Virus record (IMG/VR): IMGVR_UViG_3300009379_000005
Span: 1 to 23,442 of that record
Direction: 5' to 3' (one strand)
Source: a virus
DNA length: 23,442 bases
The position numbers were made by a program, and so were the translations under genes. The notes under the pieces are model-generated. The model searched no databases and was not told the DNA's origin. It saw nothing but the letters and a program-made list of their open reading frames with translations. Numbering within the stretch: the stretch's first letter is position 1; each line of letters starts with the position of its first letter. Positions 5,438 to 23,442 of this stretch are shown here, one piece after another.

Positions 5438-6457
5438 ATGTCAACAAGTAAAACCGCAAAAATGATGTACGAGTCTGGGCAGTCTTTCACAGACTATTCC
5501 ATGGCTACCGATTCTGGAGATGGAAAAACATTCACTGTATCTGGAGCACTGGTGTTTTCCGGGTATTCAGGAAAAGAGGTTGAGGTAAGACCAAATGGAG
5601 TGGTAACGGGCCGGGATATGCTTTCCACCCATGCCACTGATGACACTGTAACGGTAGCTGGGTTTACCGCCTATTCAGAAGGAACTCTTTATACAGTAAC
5701 TGCCACGACAGACACGATCACCAGACCGGCCACGAACGTTTCGAAAGTAAACTCCATTACCATGACCGACGCCGGTGCCATCGCTGTCGTCCCCGGTGAC
5801 GATGGGACGACCACAGCTTTTTCCGAGGTCCGAGGAGATCCAGGGGCACCCCCGCTTATCGCCGTGGATTCCGTGGAAATCGGGCAGATTCGAGTCACTG
5901 CCTCGGCGGCTGCTGCTATCACGACTTCTGAAATTTTCCAGGTGGTGGGAACCCATGCTGAGCGTTTCGATCTTCCTTCTTTTTCGACCAATAACGTCGG
6001 GGATGGTAACGCCGCAGAAGTAACAGCGAAGAAGAACGCCTACGTGGCTTTCGATGACACCCTCCCTGCGATCCATACCGGGGATGTAGAGAAGCGTGTA
6101 TATGTCTCTTTTTACACACCCATCTTCGCGGAAGTGGGGAAGGCCCTGGACTTCGTCCCCGCGGAAAACACCCATTCCCTCGCATCCACCCAGTATTATA
6201 ATGGTACGGTGGGATCCGTTTCATCCTCCCTGGGCCAGGCATCATTTACCGCTCTTATGGAGGATAATATCACGGACACCCTGGTGGGACTAAAGGATAA
6301 GACTCTGACCTTTAAGTTTTTCCCGGATCGAAACAGGGCGCCCTATGTCCTCACCCAGGGGATCATGGGAATGAAGAGGTCTTTCCCTGTCGCGGACCAG
6401 AATCAGGCGGATATCACGATCTCTGCCGAAGACCCTTCTGCTGAATTTACGAGCTAA
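5438..6457 (+). CDS. Major tail tube protein
   Basis: A 339-residue beta-rich protein, the likely subunit that stacks into the tail tube. It lies after the tail terminator-like gene and before the chaperone and tape measure, and is closed by its own terminator, as expected for an abundant protein. The ending TLTFKFFPDRNRAPYVLT then GMKRSFPVADQNQADITISA resembles the final strands of siphovirus tube proteins. Residues 25-110 contain a Thr/Val-rich segment (TFTVSGALVFSGYSGKEVEV) that could be a surface domain inserted in the tube fold. AAGGAG lies at good spacing from the ATG. The length is greater than that of many tube proteins, which supports an added domain. Confidence 0.75.
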   Translation: MSTSKTAKMMYESGQSFTDYSMATDSGDGKTFTVSGALVFSGYSGKEVEVRPNGVVTGRDMLSTHATDDTVTVAGFTAYSEGTLYTVTATTDTITRPATNVSKVNSITMTDAGAIAVVPGDDGTTTAFSEVRGDPGAPPLIAVDSVEIGQIRVTASAAAAITTSEIFQVVGTHAERFDLPSFSTNNVGDGNAAEVTAKKNAYVAFDDTLPAIHTGDVEKRVYVSFYTPIFAEVGKALDFVPAENTHSLASTQYYNGTVGSVSSSLGQASFTALMEDNITDTLVGLKDKTLTFKFFPDRNRAPYVLTQGIMGMKRSFPVADQNQADITISAEDPSAEFTS

Positions 6458-6511: not shown

Positions 6512-6952
6512 ATGTTCGATATGAACAAGTTCGCTACCGCCAATTTTTTGGTTCGAGCCAGTAAAGTTCCCGTCCCGGAAATGGAGAAATTTTTTCCGGG
6601 GGATACCGATAAAAAGGACATGGTCTGGGAGGTTCGAGGACTAAGCGCTGAGGAGCTGGCGGTCGTAAACGAGGCAGTCCAACAGAATAAAAACACGAGT
6701 GCAATCCTTTCCGCTATCGGATCGAAAGTTACGAAAGAAAAAATAGGTGCCATCAAAGAAGCGATGGGGGTTTCAGAGGATAATGCACCGGACGATGTGG
6801 TTAGGAGAATAGCGATGCTGACCGCTGGGTGTGTGACCCCGGAATGCCCTCAGGATATAGCAGTGAGAATAGGGGATGCTTTCCCTCAGGTTTTCTACAA
6901 AATAACAAACAAAATCACAGAGTTAACGGGGCTCGGTAAAGTGGGGGAATAG
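6512..6952 (+). CDS. Tail assembly chaperone, upstream (G-type) product
   Basis: A 146-residue, mainly helical, soluble protein directly before the tape measure, the invariant position of the siphovirus tail assembly chaperone. It would coat the hydrophobic tape measure until the tube assembles and is absent from the virion in studied phages. The helix segments LSAEELAVVNEAVQQN and KEKIGAIKEAMGV, and a segment DDVVRRIAMLTAGCVTPE that resembles part of many chaperones, support the call. AAGGAG lies seven to eight bases before the first ATG, choosing it over the in-frame Met at residue 4. The reading frame stops at 6950-6952 immediately after a slippery GGGGGAA, from which a longer fused product can be made. 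Confidence 0.75.
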   Translation: MFDMNKFATANFLVRASKVPVPEMEKFFPGDTDKKDMVWEVRGLSAEELAVVNEAVQQNKNTSAILSAIGSKVTKEKIGAIKEAMGVSEDNAPDDVVRRIAMLTAGCVTPECPQDIAVRIGDAFPQVFYKITNKITELTGLGKVGE

Positions 6953-7128
6953 ATGCCCTGTGGAATAACGAAAATGTAAGATTTGGGATGGCTTTAGCTG
7001 ATAAGTGGGGGAAACCTCTTTACGAAGTGATGCCGGACCGTTTTCCATGGGGCAGATTGACGCCGGTAGAACTCGAACTATGGTCGAGATTTCTCAAAGA
7101 GAGGAAAGATAATGCCAGGAACCGTTAA
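6943..7128 (+). CDS. Tail assembly chaperone extension (T-type), reached by -1 frameshift
   Basis: In the -1 frame an open reading frame runs from the slip site to TAA at 7126-7128 and codes for about 60 residues ending in VELELWSRFLKERKDNARNR. It overlaps the start of the tape measure by 17 bases, as lambda T and H do. The -1 frame has a stop (TAA within GGTAAA) just 5' of the site, so the shift must occur in AAAGTGGGGGAATAG, which points to GGGGGAA at 6943-6949. The predicted fusion is about 205 residues. An in-frame ATG at 6988 could instead start a separate 46-residue product, but it lacks a good ribosome site. The Trp-rich, acidic-basic C-terminus is the kind of segment that contacts the tape measure in other phages. 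Confidence 0.75.
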   Translation, partial: GGIDALWNNENVRFGMALADKWGKPLYEVMPDRFPWGRLTPVELELWSRFLKERKDNARNR

Positions 7129-9679
7129 AAAAACGATCGATATAATTTTCGCTGGGACAGATAAGGTTTCCGGGGTCATAGGGGACATCGGAAAAAGCCT
7201 CGATGATGTCGGGTCCGCCATGGGAGACATCGCGACACCTTTCGAGGAAATGACGAAAGCAATAGGAATTGCCCAGCTCGCAGTGGCGGGCCTGGCCACC
7301 GCAGGGGTAATAGCTGCGGGAAATCTCGAAAAAGAAACTCAGAGGATGGTAAACGCCCTGGGTCTCCCCGCCGAAGAAGCCGAAAAGTTTAAAGACATAG
7401 CTCGGGACGCTTATTCCAGTGCCTTCGTGGAGGATCTCACTGCCGCCTTCGATGGGGTTATTTTGGCCCAGCAGCGGTTCGGGGATAATGCCGATACCGA
7501 CATAGGTAAAGTCGTCGAGAACGCCGGAAAGCTGGAAAAGACTTTCGGTGTGGATATGAATGAGTCCATGAATGCTGTTTCCGCCCTGATGTCTAATTTC
7601 GGAGTTAATGCAGCCGATGCTTTCGATCTCATCGCCGACGGGTATCAAAAAGGCCTGGATGGATCAGGAGACTTCCTCGATTCGATCAATGAATATGCTA
7701 CCCAATTTTCGAACGGGCAGGCAACGGCGAGCGAGTTCTTTTCCATCATGCAAACAGGATACCAGGAGGGTTACCTCGGGGCCGATAAAGCGGCAGATGC
7801 CTTTAAAGAGTTCCGAGTGCGAATCCAGGATGGCTCAAAACTTACAGCGGACTCTTTAAAGCTTATAGGCCTGGATAATACGGAGCTTCAAAAAAATCTC
7901 CAATCCGGTGAGACAACAGTCTTTGAAGTGTTCAATAAAATCATCGGGAAGATTGGTGAGACCGATAATGAACAGACCCAAATGATAGCGGGTGTTGGCC
8001 TTATGGGAACTCAATTCGAGGACCTCGGAACGAAAGCAGTCCTCGCCCTGGACGGGACAAAGGTCAAAATTGAAGATGTCCGAAACACAATGGCGAATAT
8101 CACTTTTGAGGACTTTGAAACAAAGTTAGTTTCCGCCTGGAGATCGGCCGTGGGCTCTGTGGCCGCCATGCCAGAATGGGGAGATATTGGAGCAAAAGTA
8201 GCGGAAGTTGCCGGGGAAGTTGGCGCGAACTTTACTGATGTAATAGGGGGTTATGACTTCTCTCCTCTCATGGAAAAATTCATGTCTCTGTGGGATGAGA
8301 TTGGGAAAATATTTACAGATGCCGACCTCGATTTAACGACCATTGAGGGAATGGAAAAAGCAATTGAGTTGGCCGTCGATTCGATCGAGTCCCTGATCGC
8401 GGTAACCGAAGGCCAGATTAATGCTATAAAGCCAATCGTACTTGGGTTTGTAGACCTGGTAAAATGGTTTAACTCCCTGGACGAGGGAACAAAAAATCTT
8501 GCTGGGCAAATAGCAACAATCGGGACTGCTTTAGGTGTTGTTGGCGGCGTTGTCTCGGTGGGGTCTCCTCTATTAAGCGGCATTGGCACCATGATAACTT
8601 TATTGACCGGGCCTGTTGGGTTGGCTGTTGGGTTGGGGGTTGTTGCTGCTGCTTTAGCCACCTGGCTCGATGATTTCGAACCCATGCCGGAATCATACTT
8701 TACGAAACCCCGAGACCTCCTGAAAGAATTTAAAGAGGATATTGATCTTTTCCCCACTGAAATTGCCACAAAATTAACTGCTGCCATCGATACAGGGGCT
8801 TCCACTCAGGAAGTGATGACGATCATACAGGAAGGAATCGAGATAACAGATCAGCATTTCGATCTCGTCTTCGGAGAGGAAGGTCTCACGGAAATAGAGG
8901 AAGATCTCTACGCAATCCCGGACGAGAAACCGGTCATGATTAAAGTCGACGGCGAATGGGTGGCTGTGGACGAGCTTGAGGATAAACTTGATTCCCTCAC
9001 AGATAAGCAGATAAAGCTCGGTGTCGATGTTTCTGATGGAGACCTGAAGGTCGCGAAAGAGACGATTGAGGTTCTCGTGGGGGAGGGTGAGGCTGCCAGG
9101 GTGGTTTCCATTGAGGTCGACGCTACGGGGGCAGATGAAGCTAAAAAGAAAATAGAGGAAATCCCGACTGAAAAAGTGGTGGAGATCAAAGTTCAGGGGG
9201 AAATCGACACCGAGATAGCGAGGATAGAGGCTCAAGCGGAAACAGTGCGATCCGCGTTCGAATGGAAAGCGAAAATAGATATTTCAGAGGCGCAAGCACA
9301 AGCGGACATCCTCACAGCGGCTTATGGTTCGATCGGTGAAGGGATCGCGTCGACTGGGGATGTTATTCAGACTTCGATAAGTGCCCTGGCGGGGCTCGAT
9401 TCTGCCTCTGAAGGTTTCGGAAAGGAGTGGAAAATCGAAAAAGTCATGAGAGATGAACAAGAACTCCGGGAAAAATCATTTGAACTTCAGGAAAAATTAA
9501 CGAATTCCCAAGTGGAATATATGGACGCGAAAACAAAACAGCTCGAGAGTGGAGAAGCTTCAATCACGATCGATTCCAATGGGCTTGAACCGGCATTAGA
9601 GATGATTATGTGGCAGATAATCCAAAAAGTCCAGGTAAAAGCGAATGAGGAGGCATCCGACTTCCTCCTGGGGATATAA
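7112..9679 (+). CDS. Tail tape measure protein
   Basis: At 855 residues this is the longest structural gene, placed right after the frameshifted chaperone. It fixes tail length and is thought to pass into or through the host envelope at infection. Residues 75-320 match the conserved tape-measure core, with MSNFGVNAADAFDLIADGYQ near 160-179, a segment on the later helices (GADKAADAFKEFRVRIQDG) and MIAGVGLMGTQFEDLGTKAV near 291-310. Hydrophobic stretches lie at about 51-70 and 464-517. Residues 600-750 carry short strand-helix repeats. The C-terminal ending EEASDFLLGI is also typical. GAGG precedes the ATG. At the usual scale of about 0.15 nm per residue, the tail should be near 130 nm, close to lambda, whose tape measure has almost the same length. 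Confidence 0.92.
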   Translation: MPGTVKKTIDIIFAGTDKVSGVIGDIGKSLDDVGSAMGDIATPFEEMTKAIGIAQLAVAGLATAGVIAAGNLEKETQRMVNALGLPAEEAEKFKDIARDAYSSAFVEDLTAAFDGVILAQQRFGDNADTDIGKVVENAGKLEKTFGVDMNESMNAVSALMSNFGVNAADAFDLIADGYQKGLDGSGDFLDSINEYATQFSNGQATASEFFSIMQTGYQEGYLGADKAADAFKEFRVRIQDGSKLTADSLKLIGLDNTELQKNLQSGETTVFEVFNKIIGKIGETDNEQTQMIAGVGLMGTQFEDLGTKAVLALDGTKVKIEDVRNTMANITFEDFETKLVSAWRSAVGSVAAMPEWGDIGAKVAEVAGEVGANFTDVIGGYDFSPLMEKFMSLWDEIGKIFTDADLDLTTIEGMEKAIELAVDSIESLIAVTEGQINAIKPIVLGFVDLVKWFNSLDEGTKNLAGQIATIGTALGVVGGVVSVGSPLLSGIGTMITLLTGPVGLAVGLGVVAAALATWLDDFEPMPESYFTKPRDLLKEFKEDIDLFPTEIATKLTAAIDTGASTQEVMTIIQEGIEITDQHFDLVFGEEGLTEIEEDLYAIPDEKPVMIKVDGEWVAVDELEDKLDSLTDKQIKLGVDVSDGDLKVAKETIEVLVGEGEAARVVSIEVDATGADEAKKKIEEIPTEKVVEIKVQGEIDTEIARIEAQAETVRSAFEWKAKIDISEAQAQADILTAAYGSIGEGIASTGDVIQTSISALAGLDSASEGFGKEWKIEKVMRDEQELREKSFELQEKLTNSQVEYMDAKTKQLESGEASITIDSNGLEPALEMIMWQIIQKVQVKANEEASDFLLGI

Positions 9680-18878: not shown

Positions 18879-20174
18879 TTAATCTGTATTGACTTCATTT
18901 TTATCTAACCTCCATCCTTTAAATCTTGGCTGCCTCATAGAACCGACCTTTGTCTTTTCCTTGAACTCAATTTCAGCTATCATACCCTGAAAATTGTCGG
19001 CGTTCGCCCACAGATAACACCTTCGTCTGCGCTCATATGCACCCTGGGTTCCGTATTTTTTTAACATTTTTCGGGTCTGGCCAGGGGATAATTCCCCGAA
19101 AGGTTTCTCCACGAACCCGGTGCCAACCTTTACCTCGTGGCCGCAGAACTCGACCACCATTTTACCCATGGACCCAAGAAACTTACCCTTCCCCTCCTCG
19201 AAATAAAGAACCCGGCAATCGGCTGACTTTACAGGACACATCCGACACCAGTCCATGGAACGGGCATCCCGATAGTCATGCTTAATTTTATAGACCACAA
19301 GACCCTCTTCCCCGGCGGAAAGGGCTTCCTCGTAAAAGGAGGCAAGCTCCTTTTCATTGGTGCATGTCCGGTGCTCCACGACCTTTACATGGTCCGTTTC
19401 CTCTATGTTTTCCCGCATAAACTTTAATCGAGTGAGCTTGCCTCCCTGGACATTGGGAACGTCGAATATCCAAAACACGGCGTCGGGCGTCTCCGCGTGG
19501 TTGCGGACTTTTCCGGATCCCTCATCAAAGATCATCCCTGGGATAACAACCTCTCCATCCTTTTCAAAAGGATACTGGTCAAGCTCTTCCTCAAGGTGTG
19601 ACATCCCTTTTAAAGAGTGACCGGCCCGTGTCTGGATCCTCGACTCTCCATAGGCCACCCGCCCCCTGGTCCCGTCTTTCTTGATGGCGGCGACCACGGG
19701 ATAAACCACCTTTTCGATATCAAGGGTTTTGCACAACATGATGGGGGGTTTGTCCGCTCCGTTGTCGGCTGTCTTGATCAGCCCTGGGAAAGCCCTGTTT
19801 ATCCCCTTGACACCGACCCCAAGGTGCAGATCCTTGCTCAAAATACACCTGAATAGGTCGATGCTATCCGGGGTCAAGGTGACGAGATAGTCACAAACAA
19901 CCTCAAAAGCGGCATTCCCGGAAAGTTCCCTTTTATGGAGATCAAGGAGAATGGCTCGCCCCTCGGGATCAATATTACCGTTTTCGAAAAAGAGTGTTCC
20001 TCCGTCTTCATTAGGAATCCCAAAAACTCTTGGAACCTTATCTCCGGTCATGTAGAATTTTATGAACGGATCATAGGCCAGACGGAGAAGGTTTTTTATC
20101 TCCGGGTGTGTTTTCATGGCCTCGATCTGGGCGTTTCCCGACAAAGCTCGTAATTCATTAATCGTATTTATCAT
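18879..20174 (-). CDS. ATP-dependent DNA ligase
   Basis: A 431-residue ligase that seals nicks with ATP through a lysyl-AMP intermediate. Motif I is AAIKKDGTRGRV, with the nucleotide-binding Lys at about residue 165. DGEVVIPGM (about 206-214) is motif III. FWIFDVP and EEGLVVYK (about 289-296) follow as motifs IIIa and IV, and CPVKSADCRV (Lys at about 316) as motif V. The C-terminal segment has an OB-like domain (MVVEFCGHEVKVGTGF). The helical N-terminal 120 residues resemble those of T7/T4-related enzymes. ATG 20174 is chosen because it overlaps the polymerase stop (ATGA) and follows AAGGGAG by five bases; a GTG at 20180 is less likely. Its partners are polymerase and resolvase, a nick-sealing role in phage replication. 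Confidence 0.92.
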   Translation of the reverse strand: MINTINELRALSGNAQIEAMKTHPEIKNLLRLAYDPFIKFYMTGDKVPRVFGIPNEDGGTLFFENGNIDPEGRAILLDLHKRELSGNAAFEVVCDYLVTLTPDSIDLFRCILSKDLHLGVGVKGINRAFPGLIKTADNGADKPPIMLCKTLDIEKVVYPVVAAIKKDGTRGRVAYGESRIQTRAGHSLKGMSHLEEELDQYPFEKDGEVVIPGMIFDEGSGKVRNHAETPDAVFWIFDVPNVQGGKLTRLKFMRENIEETDHVKVVEHRTCTNEKELASFYEEALSAGEEGLVVYKIKHDYRDARSMDWCRMCPVKSADCRVLYFEEGKGKFLGSMGKMVVEFCGHEVKVGTGFVEKPFGELSPGQTRKMLKKYGTQGAYERRRRCYLWANADNFQGMIAEIEFKEKTKVGSMRQPRFKGWRLDKNEVNTD

Positions 20175-23005
20175 GTCCACTCCCTTGTTATTTTTTTAAT
20201 GTTTTCAACGAAAAGTATTCCCCAACCGTTTATCTTTTTTCCATGGATCATATACCAGTCTTTCTCCTCTTTCCCTCTTTCCGCAATTTCCTTTCCAAAC
20301 CGGAGATAATCTTGACGCTTTATCTTTACCACCATTTCCCCGGTATCATCCTCAAGTCGCAAATTAATGGATTGGGAATCTTTTGTCAAGTACTTTCCAC
20401 CCCTTTGTGAAACTTTTTCCGGGGCGTTCTCGTCTTTCATCTGTTTAAAGAGCAAACACCCGATAAAAGTAAAGGTGCCGTCACCCTTGCAATCCTTGAT
20501 ATAATGGATGGCACCATTCAGCCCGTGGGCCTGGGGGTTTTCGTATATGTCCCCGTATACCTCCCGACCTGGCCACAGATACTTAAATGGAGTGATACCG
20601 GAAGATACAGCTTTTTCAATTGCGGGGGTTAGTTTCGACCCATCTCTCCTGGCTTTTAAGACCTTATTTGCCTTTGCTGGGCCCATTCCATCGATCGAAC
20701 ATAAACCGCCGTATATAACCCCATCATGGACCGTCCACGCCCTATCTGATCGTTCCCGATCAAAGTGGCACCACTGGAGATCGTCTTTTTCAACCCCGTC
20801 TCTCAATATCTTCCTTGCCGACATGTTATTTTTTGCATTATTGAGGTTTGCGACAACAAACTCAAGCGGGTGATGGGCCTTCATGTACGCACAAAGGTAT
20901 GAAATAAGCCCGTAGCAGACGGAATGTGACTTATTGAAGGCATAACCACCCATAGTTTGTATGCCTTCCCAAACAATATTTGCAGCCTCTTCAGTGTCGC
21001 CATTATTGACAGCTCCGGAAATGAATTTTTCTTTAAAAGCCGAGAAGAACTCTGCCCCCATGGATTTTGATACACCTTTTCGGAGCTTACCGCATTCCCC
21101 CCAAGAGAATTTTCCATATCTCCTGGCAAGCTCCAGCATGGTTTCCTGATAGATGATCATTCCGAAAGTCTTTTTACAGATCTCTATTACCAGGGGGTGG
21201 TCTGATAGTTGGGTCACAGGGGCAGCTCCCCGACGGACCCGGCAGAACTTTACTGCTGCACCTGACCCCATGGGACCGGGGCGACCGATGGCGCACAAGG
21301 CGGAAATATCTTCCAGGGATTCGATTGGCATGCTATTCGCGAGACCTTGGACCGCTGATCCTTCGAATTGAAAAATACCATCATAGCGGTGGTCTGCGAA
21401 CACCCTAAATGCTCCAGGATCATCGAGGGGGATTTCATAAAGCCAATCATAGGGCTTTCCTATTTGGTCGCAAACGTGGGCCAAAATGGTCATGGTTCGA
21501 AGACCCAGCGCGTCAATTTTCAGGAGGTTGACCACCTCTGCATCTTTTTTATCCACCATTGCGATTCTGGCATTTTTTACGGACAAGATACCGGCATATT
21601 TCGAAATTGGAGAATTGCAAACGATTATAGCCGCCGCATGAACCCCGGTGTGGGATGGGTGCCCCTCTATCTTTGCGACGGGGATCATCCGGGGAAACTC
21701 TTTGGCGAACCTTTTTCCGATATCAGACTTTTCAAAAAAATCATCAATGGTTTTATTTTTCCGAGAGTCACCGGCGGAACCCTCCGGGATGGATTCTTTT
21801 ATTTCGTCGGTGGCTTCGAAAGGCAATTTTAGAGCCTTCGAGAAAAGGTTTATTGCGGATTTCGGTTTCAGGAGACCGACGGTTCCGAGCTGGGCCACGT
21901 TTTGTTCCCCGTATTTTCTTGAAAGATACTTCATAACAAGATGTCTCTTGTCGTCCTGGAAATCAATATCAATATCAGGGGCATCGAAACGACCCGGATC
22001 GAGAAACCTCTCAAAGAACAGGTTAAAAACTATTGGGTCCACCGTGGTGATCCCCATGAGATAACATACCAGCGACCCAGCGGCCGAACCACGCCCAGGG
22101 CCTACGGCCATTTTCGTTTTCGAGTATCGGATAAGATCCGCAGTTACGAGGAAATAATCGACATAATCCTTCTTTTTAATGAGGTCAATTTCCCGGTGGT
22201 ACCTGTCCCGGTATTCCCCTGGGTTCGTGATATCTACCCCCAGGATCTTTGCTCCTTTTTCACACCAAATGTCGATCTTGTCTTTTCCAACATATTTCAC
22301 CATGGGGGCGAACGGAAGCTCGACGTTGCACTCTTCATTTAACACCTGTAGGTTTCGGAACGCTTCAGCGCTGGGGCACGTATTCAACCATTCCCTGGGT
22401 GTCGGGATGTGCATCATAGTCGTGCGCCTCTCTCTCTTCCGATCGGCGGCGAACGGTTCATAAACGGGCTTGTCCCAGGGGTCCAAATAAAAATTGTCTA
22501 TGGATGCGATCAAAGGGGCCTCTGAAGCCTTCCATATGCTGGCTGGTATATGCGGGCCGACTTCCTGGTAAACATTGCCATGTGGCATCAAATCCCAGTC
22601 AGGAGCAATACCCGAGAACATGACCACGGAAGGTGAAAGGTTCTGAATATCACTGTATTCGAGGAGGTTCTGGAAGTAAAACTTTTTCCCGGAGATATTA
22701 ACCAGTTCGTAAATTTCCGCCAGCCCGTGGGAATCTTTCGCGATAAACGTCATCTCATTAACTTTATGTCTCCTGTTCTTCGTCTCCCGGATGTGCGCCA
22801 GGTCGTTAACGACGTGAAGCCGCACCCCGTATATGGGTTTTATCTCGGCTTTATCACAGGCTTTTTTCCACCTGACGTGCCCGAAGGTGTTATTTCTGTC
22901 CGCCATTCCTCCGGACGTGCCGAACCTGGCAAGTTTTTCCGCCACCTGGTCCAGGTGTCCGTAAACTTGCCCGAAAGTGTATCCTGTTTTTACATTAATC
23001 CACAC
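20171..23005 (-). CDS. dnaE: DNA polymerase III alpha-type replicative polymerase (short, phage form)
   Basis: A 944-residue family C polymerase. The palm holds GPGRGSAAGSL (302-312), PDIDIDF (343-349, Asp346 and Asp348) and KIDALGL (Asp498), the three catalytic acids of this family. CAIGRPGPM (571-579), FGMIIYQE (614-621) and FNKSHSVCYGL (690-700) are further family marks. Residues 764-786 (IYGGLCSIDGMGPAKANK) form the helix-hairpin-helix. Residues 845-940 look like an OB fold, and there is no tau-binding tail; E. coli alpha is about 1160 residues. The N-terminal PHP domain has INVKTGYTFGQ where a histidine-rich motif is usual. The start is GTG 23005, one base over the preceding TAG, with GGAGGGG upstream. 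The gene symbol is by similarity only. Confidence 0.92.
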   Translation of the reverse strand: MWINVKTGYTFGQVYGHLDQVAEKLARFGTSGGMADRNNTFGHVRWKKACDKAEIKPIYGVRLHVVNDLAHIRETKNRRHKVNEMTFIAKDSHGLAEIYELVNISGKKFYFQNLLEYSDIQNLSPSVVMFSGIAPDWDLMPHGNVYQEVGPHIPASIWKASEAPLIASIDNFYLDPWDKPVYEPFAADRKRERRTTMMHIPTPREWLNTCPSAEAFRNLQVLNEECNVELPFAPMVKYVGKDKIDIWCEKGAKILGVDITNPGEYRDRYHREIDLIKKKDYVDYFLVTADLIRYSKTKMAVGPGRGSAAGSLVCYLMGITTVDPIVFNLFFERFLDPGRFDAPDIDIDFQDDKRHLVMKYLSRKYGEQNVAQLGTVGLLKPKSAINLFSKALKLPFEATDEIKESIPEGSAGDSRKNKTIDDFFEKSDIGKRFAKEFPRMIPVAKIEGHPSHTGVHAAAIIVCNSPISKYAGILSVKNARIAMVDKKDAEVVNLLKIDALGLRTMTILAHVCDQIGKPYDWLYEIPLDDPGAFRVFADHRYDGIFQFEGSAVQGLANSMPIESLEDISALCAIGRPGPMGSGAAVKFCRVRRGAAPVTQLSDHPLVIEICKKTFGMIIYQETMLELARRYGKFSWGECGKLRKGVSKSMGAEFFSAFKEKFISGAVNNGDTEEAANIVWEGIQTMGGYAFNKSHSVCYGLISYLCAYMKAHHPLEFVVANLNNAKNNMSARKILRDGVEKDDLQWCHFDRERSDRAWTVHDGVIYGGLCSIDGMGPAKANKVLKARRDGSKLTPAIEKAVSSGITPFKYLWPGREVYGDIYENPQAHGLNGAIHYIKDCKGDGTFTFIGCLLFKQMKDENAPEKVSQRGGKYLTKDSQSINLRLEDDTGEMVVKIKRQDYLRFGKEIAERGKEEKDWYMIHGKKINGWGILFVENIKKITREWT

Positions 23006-23442
23006 TATATTTTCCCCTCCAAACGGTTTTTTGCAACATCAACCCATGACATTCCATCAATGTAAACCCCGTTCACCACTTTCTTCTTTTCGCAATAACC
23101 GTTATCAATGCCAACACCAAGGCGGTTGAGATTCTGACATGCAACAATGGTTGTGCCGGAGCCCATGGAAAAATCAAGAACCCTTTCCCCCTCATTCGTG
23201 TACGTCTTAATAAGATACTCCATGAGTTCAACGGGTTTTTGGGTGGGGTGAACCGCCTTTCTTTGGTTATCCCGGCTGAAATAGATCAGATTCGTTTTTT
23301 TCGAATGAGTGTAATGGGCGTATTTTCGGGAGCCATCATCATTTAAGTTATTGGGGCCTGTTTTAAAATTAATGTCTGATTTTATTACAGGGAGGGTGTG
23401 TTTATATGGTTTTTTTAACTTTTCCCCTTTGCTGTCATAGTG
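23005..23442 (-). CDS. DNA adenine-type methyltransferase, C-terminal part (gene runs off the window)
   Basis: The open frame continues without stop from the right edge (first codon at 23442) to TAG at 23007-23005, 145 residues. HPTQKPVELMEYLIKTY is the region before motif I, and VLDFSMGSGTTIVACQNLNR holds the S-adenosylmethionine motif (F-x-M-G-S-G-T-T). The order, with the catalytic DPPY-type motif expected upstream, fits the beta class of N6-adenine or N4-cytosine methyltransferases. The start and target domain lie outside the window. Its stop overlaps the polymerase start by one base. Likely role: to modify phage DNA against host restriction, or to act on replicated DNA; no partner endonuclease is seen. 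Confidence 0.85.
   Translation of the reverse strand, partial: HYDSKGEKLKKPYKHTLPVIKSDINFKTGPNNLNDDGSRKYAHYTHSKKTNLIYFSRDNQRKAVHPTQKPVELMEYLIKTYTNEGERVLDFSMGSGTTIVACQNLNRLGVGIDNGYCEKKKVVNGVYIDGMSWVDVAKNRLEGKI

Follow-up and report, generated by a model that had tools for sequence, protein, structure and literature searches.

The gene at positions 6512–6952 of the window (the whole IMG/VR virus record IMGVR_UViG_3300009379_000005, 23,442 bases) very probably undergoes -1 programmed ribosomal frameshifting near its 3' end and belongs to the tail assembly chaperone genes of the siphovirus type, with a probability of about 0.93 in our estimate. A frameshift of the lambda G/GT type had been predicted here from the sequence letters, and this original prediction is supported by the gene order, the same -1 layout in every related locus, purifying selection in the -1 frame, the slippery motifs and an HK97-like predicted fold.

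The frame-0 gene (6512–6952, + strand) begins with ATG at 6512, encodes 146 aa and ends with GGT AAA GTG GGG GAA TAG, in which the slippery heptamer G_GGG_GAA occupies 6943–6949 and is directly followed by the UAG stop at 6950–6952. Its product would be the short, G-like form of the chaperone, as the gene order, an AlphaFold model and 45 relatives suggest. The second open reading frame (ORF; 6940–7128, + strand) lies in the -1 frame, overlaps this gene and has no start of its own in the window. It is limited by a TAA at 6937–6939 on the 5' side and by another TAA at 7126–7128 on the 3' side, with 6940–7125 free of stops, and the overlap of the two frames is 13 nt, the UAG counted in. Because of these two stops and the short overlap, a -1 shift is confined to AGTGGGGGAA, the 10 bases 5' of the UAG. 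The +1 frame stops at 6966–6968, and its extension is not comparable to that of the -1 frame. A tandem slip would add 59 T-like residues, read from 6949, to the 146 of the short form, giving a predicted product of 205 aa. The main readings of the original prediction, namely the heptamer and the stop next to it, the -1 frame open to 7128, the TAA within GGTAAA that bounds the slip and a fusion of about 205 residues, were all confirmed on the sequence.

The order of genes around the site is that of a tail assembly chaperone, between a presumed major tail protein (assigned by position only) and the tape measure gene. The tape measure protein (7112–9679, + strand, 855 aa; PF10145, E = 3.2e-18; phrog_1272, E = 8.6e-37) is the presumed partner of the chaperone, and its gene overlaps the -1 ORF by 17 nt. 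The presumed major tail protein (5438–6457, + strand, 339 aa) matches phrog_30644 (E = 3.8e-86), whose function is listed as unknown; its place ahead of the chaperone suggests a role for this protein family. Farther 5' are a neck-type protein, a possible terminator, a capsid protein (PF05065) and a prohead protease (PF04586). On the - strand, the far end of the window encodes a 944-aa DNA polymerase III alpha-type protein with PHP, NTPase and finger domains (20171–23005; PF02811, PF07733, PF17657), an ATP-dependent DNA ligase whose gene adjoins that of the polymerase (18879–20180; PF01068, PF04679), and a C-terminal piece of an N6/N4 DNA methylase, listed as a 72-aa ORF (23005–23223; PF01555).

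Relatives were gathered by tblastn and pattern scans, which yielded two GenBank phages and many IMG/VR contigs, and profiles made for each half identified 45 non-redundant loci containing both parts (window included). In all of them (45 of 45), the C-terminal domain is encoded in the -1 frame with respect to the N-terminal ORF, although these loci share ancestry and their counts are therefore not independent draws. Comparison with related phages had been proposed as a check on the site, and it thus comes out in favor of the -1 arrangement. No match was found in cellular genomes with the window protein alone, while an alignment-based scan of cellular genomes gave three usable loci, all with the same -1 layout and one of them from Desulfoluna spongiiphila, as well as a doubtful partial match (L060). 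Sequencing error or gene decay could give a metagenomic contig an isolated one-base shift of this appearance, with no recoding involved. However, the same split at 45 non-redundant loci, GenBank phages included, together with purifying selection in both frames, makes this explanation extremely improbable, and we regard it as already refuted by the comparison.

The nearest relative (L005) shares 81% and 79% protein identity with the window in the two parts. In the -1 frame past the overlap, the two differ by 24.5 synonymous changes over 32 sites and 10.5 nonsynonymous changes over 127 sites, and the synonymous excess vanishes in the other two frames. This pattern of substitutions, mostly synonymous in the -1 frame only, supports purifying selection on the C-terminal part as read in that frame. 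The longest identical DNA run between the two gene pairs is 19 nt (6935–6953) and spans the slip site, and the best 30-nt segments begin at this run. Taken at the level of sequence comparison, both coding frames, the position of the slip site and its conservation are established.

In 41 of 45 loci, the window among them, no ATG, GTG or TTG stands ahead of the conserved C-terminal domain, so that frameshifting is the sole evident route to it. Alternatively, the domain could be expressed as a gene of its own, through internal initiation or reinitiation, if the G run served as a Shine-Dalgarno sequence; Sharma et al. suspected a low-level start at a -1 frame AUA 7 nt past their G_GGG constructs (PMC4066793), and the window has a -1 frame AUA at 6949–6951, just past its G run. 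But this AUA abuts the G run, a spacing that is probably too short for a normal start, and the layout is the same in relatives where A_AAA_AAG or GUA_AAG replaces the G run. With the usual start codons missing as well, we consider internal initiation very improbable.

On the + strand of the window GGGGGAA occurs in four copies, three of them in phase within + strand genes, so the heptamer alone proves nothing and it is its position that counts. A shift-prone motif is found about 7–10 codons past a conserved LTG in 44 of the 45 loci, at the same codons as in the window, and these motifs are G_GGA_AAG (11 loci), G_GGA_AAA (9), GUA_AAG (9), A_AAA_AAG (6), G_GGG_GAA (5) and G_GGG_GAG (4). Where the motif is a GGR-RAR codon pair, the preceding base was G every time (29 of 29), whereas the other GGR codons in these genes follow a G in 39 of 146 cases. 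On the tree of fused proteins the motif class switches at least 13 times, which indicates that the motif is exchanged while the -1 layout is kept. One locus (L001, 5418–5426) reads GAG GGG CAT and has no standard slippery motif, yet its -1 frame domain is retained and a stable structure is predicted downstream.

A change of frame could also arise in transcription, if RNA polymerase slipped at a homopolymer and added a base, and A runs of 9 to 10 in three relatives (L006, L020 and L056) would suit such slippage. The window, however, has only five G, which is shorter than the runs where RNA polymerase usually slips. Many relatives carry the mixed GGGAAAG with no long run, and in all relatives the motif is phased on codons as tandem tRNA slippage predicts, which leaves polymerase slippage a very small chance.

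The original prediction had called the heptamer not the most common one, but GGGGGAA is not rare. Every one of the roughly one thousand 'fivetwo' motifs that PRFect reports from SEA-PHAGES data has this sequence (PMC10885494), and corynephage phi16 is predicted to use it as well (PMC5506516). The window site has the features of 'fivetwo', with five G and two A in the phase G_GGG_GAA ahead of the frame-0 stop. In these actinophages and in phi16 the same GGGGGAA lies in the tail assembly gene (PMC10885494, PMC5506516); their hosts are actinobacteria, whereas the hosts named for relatives of the window (not for the window itself) are proteobacterial or Desulfobacterota-like (Marinobacter, Desulfoluna, Methylobacter). 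Among the other motifs of the family, G_GGA_AAG, A_AAA_AAG and A_AAG are shift-prone in E. coli (PMC5009743), and A_AAG tops the tetramers (PMC4066793). As to whether related phages keep the G run, the slip position is retained and the G run itself is not kept by all of them. Since another known shifty sequence stands at the same codons, a changed G run does not refute the site.

A stop directly 3' of the motif is present at 8 of 9 GGGGGAR sites and 7 of 36 others (Fisher p = 2e-4), while most GGGGGAR sites form one clade and only three independent pairs exist on the tree, of which one or two go in the predicted direction. The proposal that the stop itself, here the adjacent UAG at 6950–6952, stimulates the slip is plausible as a hypothesis, though phylogenetically confounded. 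A stronger version adds to the frameshift reading that the UAG is needed to stimulate G_GGG_GAR, with the slip taking place partly with the stop in the A site. The 8 of 9 sites speak for this addition, but the single clade, the few fitting pairs and locus L030, which carries GGGGGAA with no stop, make it rather unlikely. At L030 (5414–5520), frame 0 stays open alongside the -1 frame domain for over 30 codons.

Downstream of the heptamer, folding predicts a 12-bp outer stem between 6954–6965 (5' arm, + strand) and 7043–7054 (3' arm, + strand), which begins 4 nt past the heptamer. Across the family, RNA of the stretch after the heptamer is more stable than its synonymous recodings (mean z = -1.8; 49% with p < 0.05), and control stretches taken upstream and in the tape measure gene reach a mean z of only -0.88 to -0.15. 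For a stem that was defined from the window itself, whose arms encode the conserved ALW and FPxG, and with the effect of kinship retained, pairing in the outer stem covers 71% of cells versus 62% after synonymous shuffling (z = 6.2), its covariation score is above all 500 shuffles, and pairing falls to 41–49% when the partner strand is slid. About half of the relatives form the outer stem, and in many others a local hairpin takes its place. In the window alone, compared with synonymous recodings, the pairing of the arms is in excess (p = 0.02) and the total energy is not (p = 0.16). No short hairpin was detected within 40–80 nt downstream in the window (z about +0.4 to +0.6), and only the longer structure stands out. 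An upstream Shine-Dalgarno-like stimulator showed no excess over synonymous recodings (-5.77 vs -5.65 kcal/mol), and an Rfam search of the window returned no family. From these folding comparisons, the stem at 6954–6965/7043–7054 probably exists and stimulates the slip, as a candidate element; it was absent from the original prediction and would be a new part of the finding.

Tail assembly chaperones diverge widely in sequence. Searches of Pfam and PHROGs gave no match for either half in the 45 members, so the family is uncatalogued there, and a sequence search of solved structures found no meaningful match. The AlphaFold model of the N-terminal domain, built from 43 relatives, has a mean pLDDT of 88.8, with YqbN (3klu) and the HK97 tail assembly chaperone (2ob9) as its top PDB matches (Foldseek probability 0.97–1.00); one of these two is thus from the family that was expected. 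These two give the best structural likeness (Z = 7.7 for 2ob9 and 7.6 for 3klu; next best 4.9), although the scores are middling, no Foldseek E-value is below 0.001, and sequence identity is less than 20% over the aligned part. Weaker viral matches include several annotated phage tail assembly chaperones. On the strength of the modelled fold, the product of 6512–6952 is likely to be a tail assembly chaperone.

In the proposed mechanism, the majority of ribosomes would terminate at the UAG at 6950 and release the 146-aa chaperone, while a minority would step back one base on G_GGG_GAA. The tRNA-Gly could re-pair fully on GGG and the tRNA-Glu on GGA via a U:G pair, the same re-pairing that the PRFect authors proposed for GGGGGAA (PMC10885494). 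Reading would then continue as AUA GAU GCC CUG UGG and give the 205-aa fusion, the stem 4 nt past the heptamer probably stimulating the slip. The lambda short form binds to its tape measure protein, and the major tail protein arrives with the fusion (PMC5009743); by analogy, the short form here may coat the tape measure protein, while its C-terminal extension may recruit the major tail protein. We infer the use and efficiency of the slip in cells, the roles of the stem and the stop, and the chaperone function from these sequence patterns and models.

The lambda G/GT pair likewise lies just 5' of the tape measure gene, shifts to -1 near its 3' end and makes a short and an extended product, and the lambda heptamer G_GGA_AAG recurs, identical and in phase, in 11 of the 45 loci. 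Unlike lambda, the window has G_GGG_GAA with a stop directly after it and no detectable Pfam or PHROG chaperone match. Two GenBank phages, Marinobacter phage PS3 (MF959999) and ctUtU524 (MW202621), contain homologous genes with the same -1 layout ahead of the tape measure gene, in which the motif is GUA_AAG rather than the G_GGG_GAA of the window. Their annotation lists the products as hypothetical, and no join marks the frameshift.

A mechanism of the lambda G/GT kind has long been known, and the site found here is a real but ordinary case of it. What is new is the uncatalogued chaperone family, the annotation missed in GenBank and the candidate stem. Ordinary annotation misses such a frameshift, as happened in the two GenBank relatives, and the analysis contributes a family of chaperones that Pfam and PHROGs lack, together with a series of 45 loci whose slippery motifs are interchangeable. 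We tentatively suggest, as a possibility well short of even odds, that G_GGG_GAR, the stop at the next codon and the conserved long-range stem act together, while relatives swap their slippery motifs. If this is true, the family would provide a natural series for measuring the trade-offs by which heptamer, stop and stem hold one product ratio.
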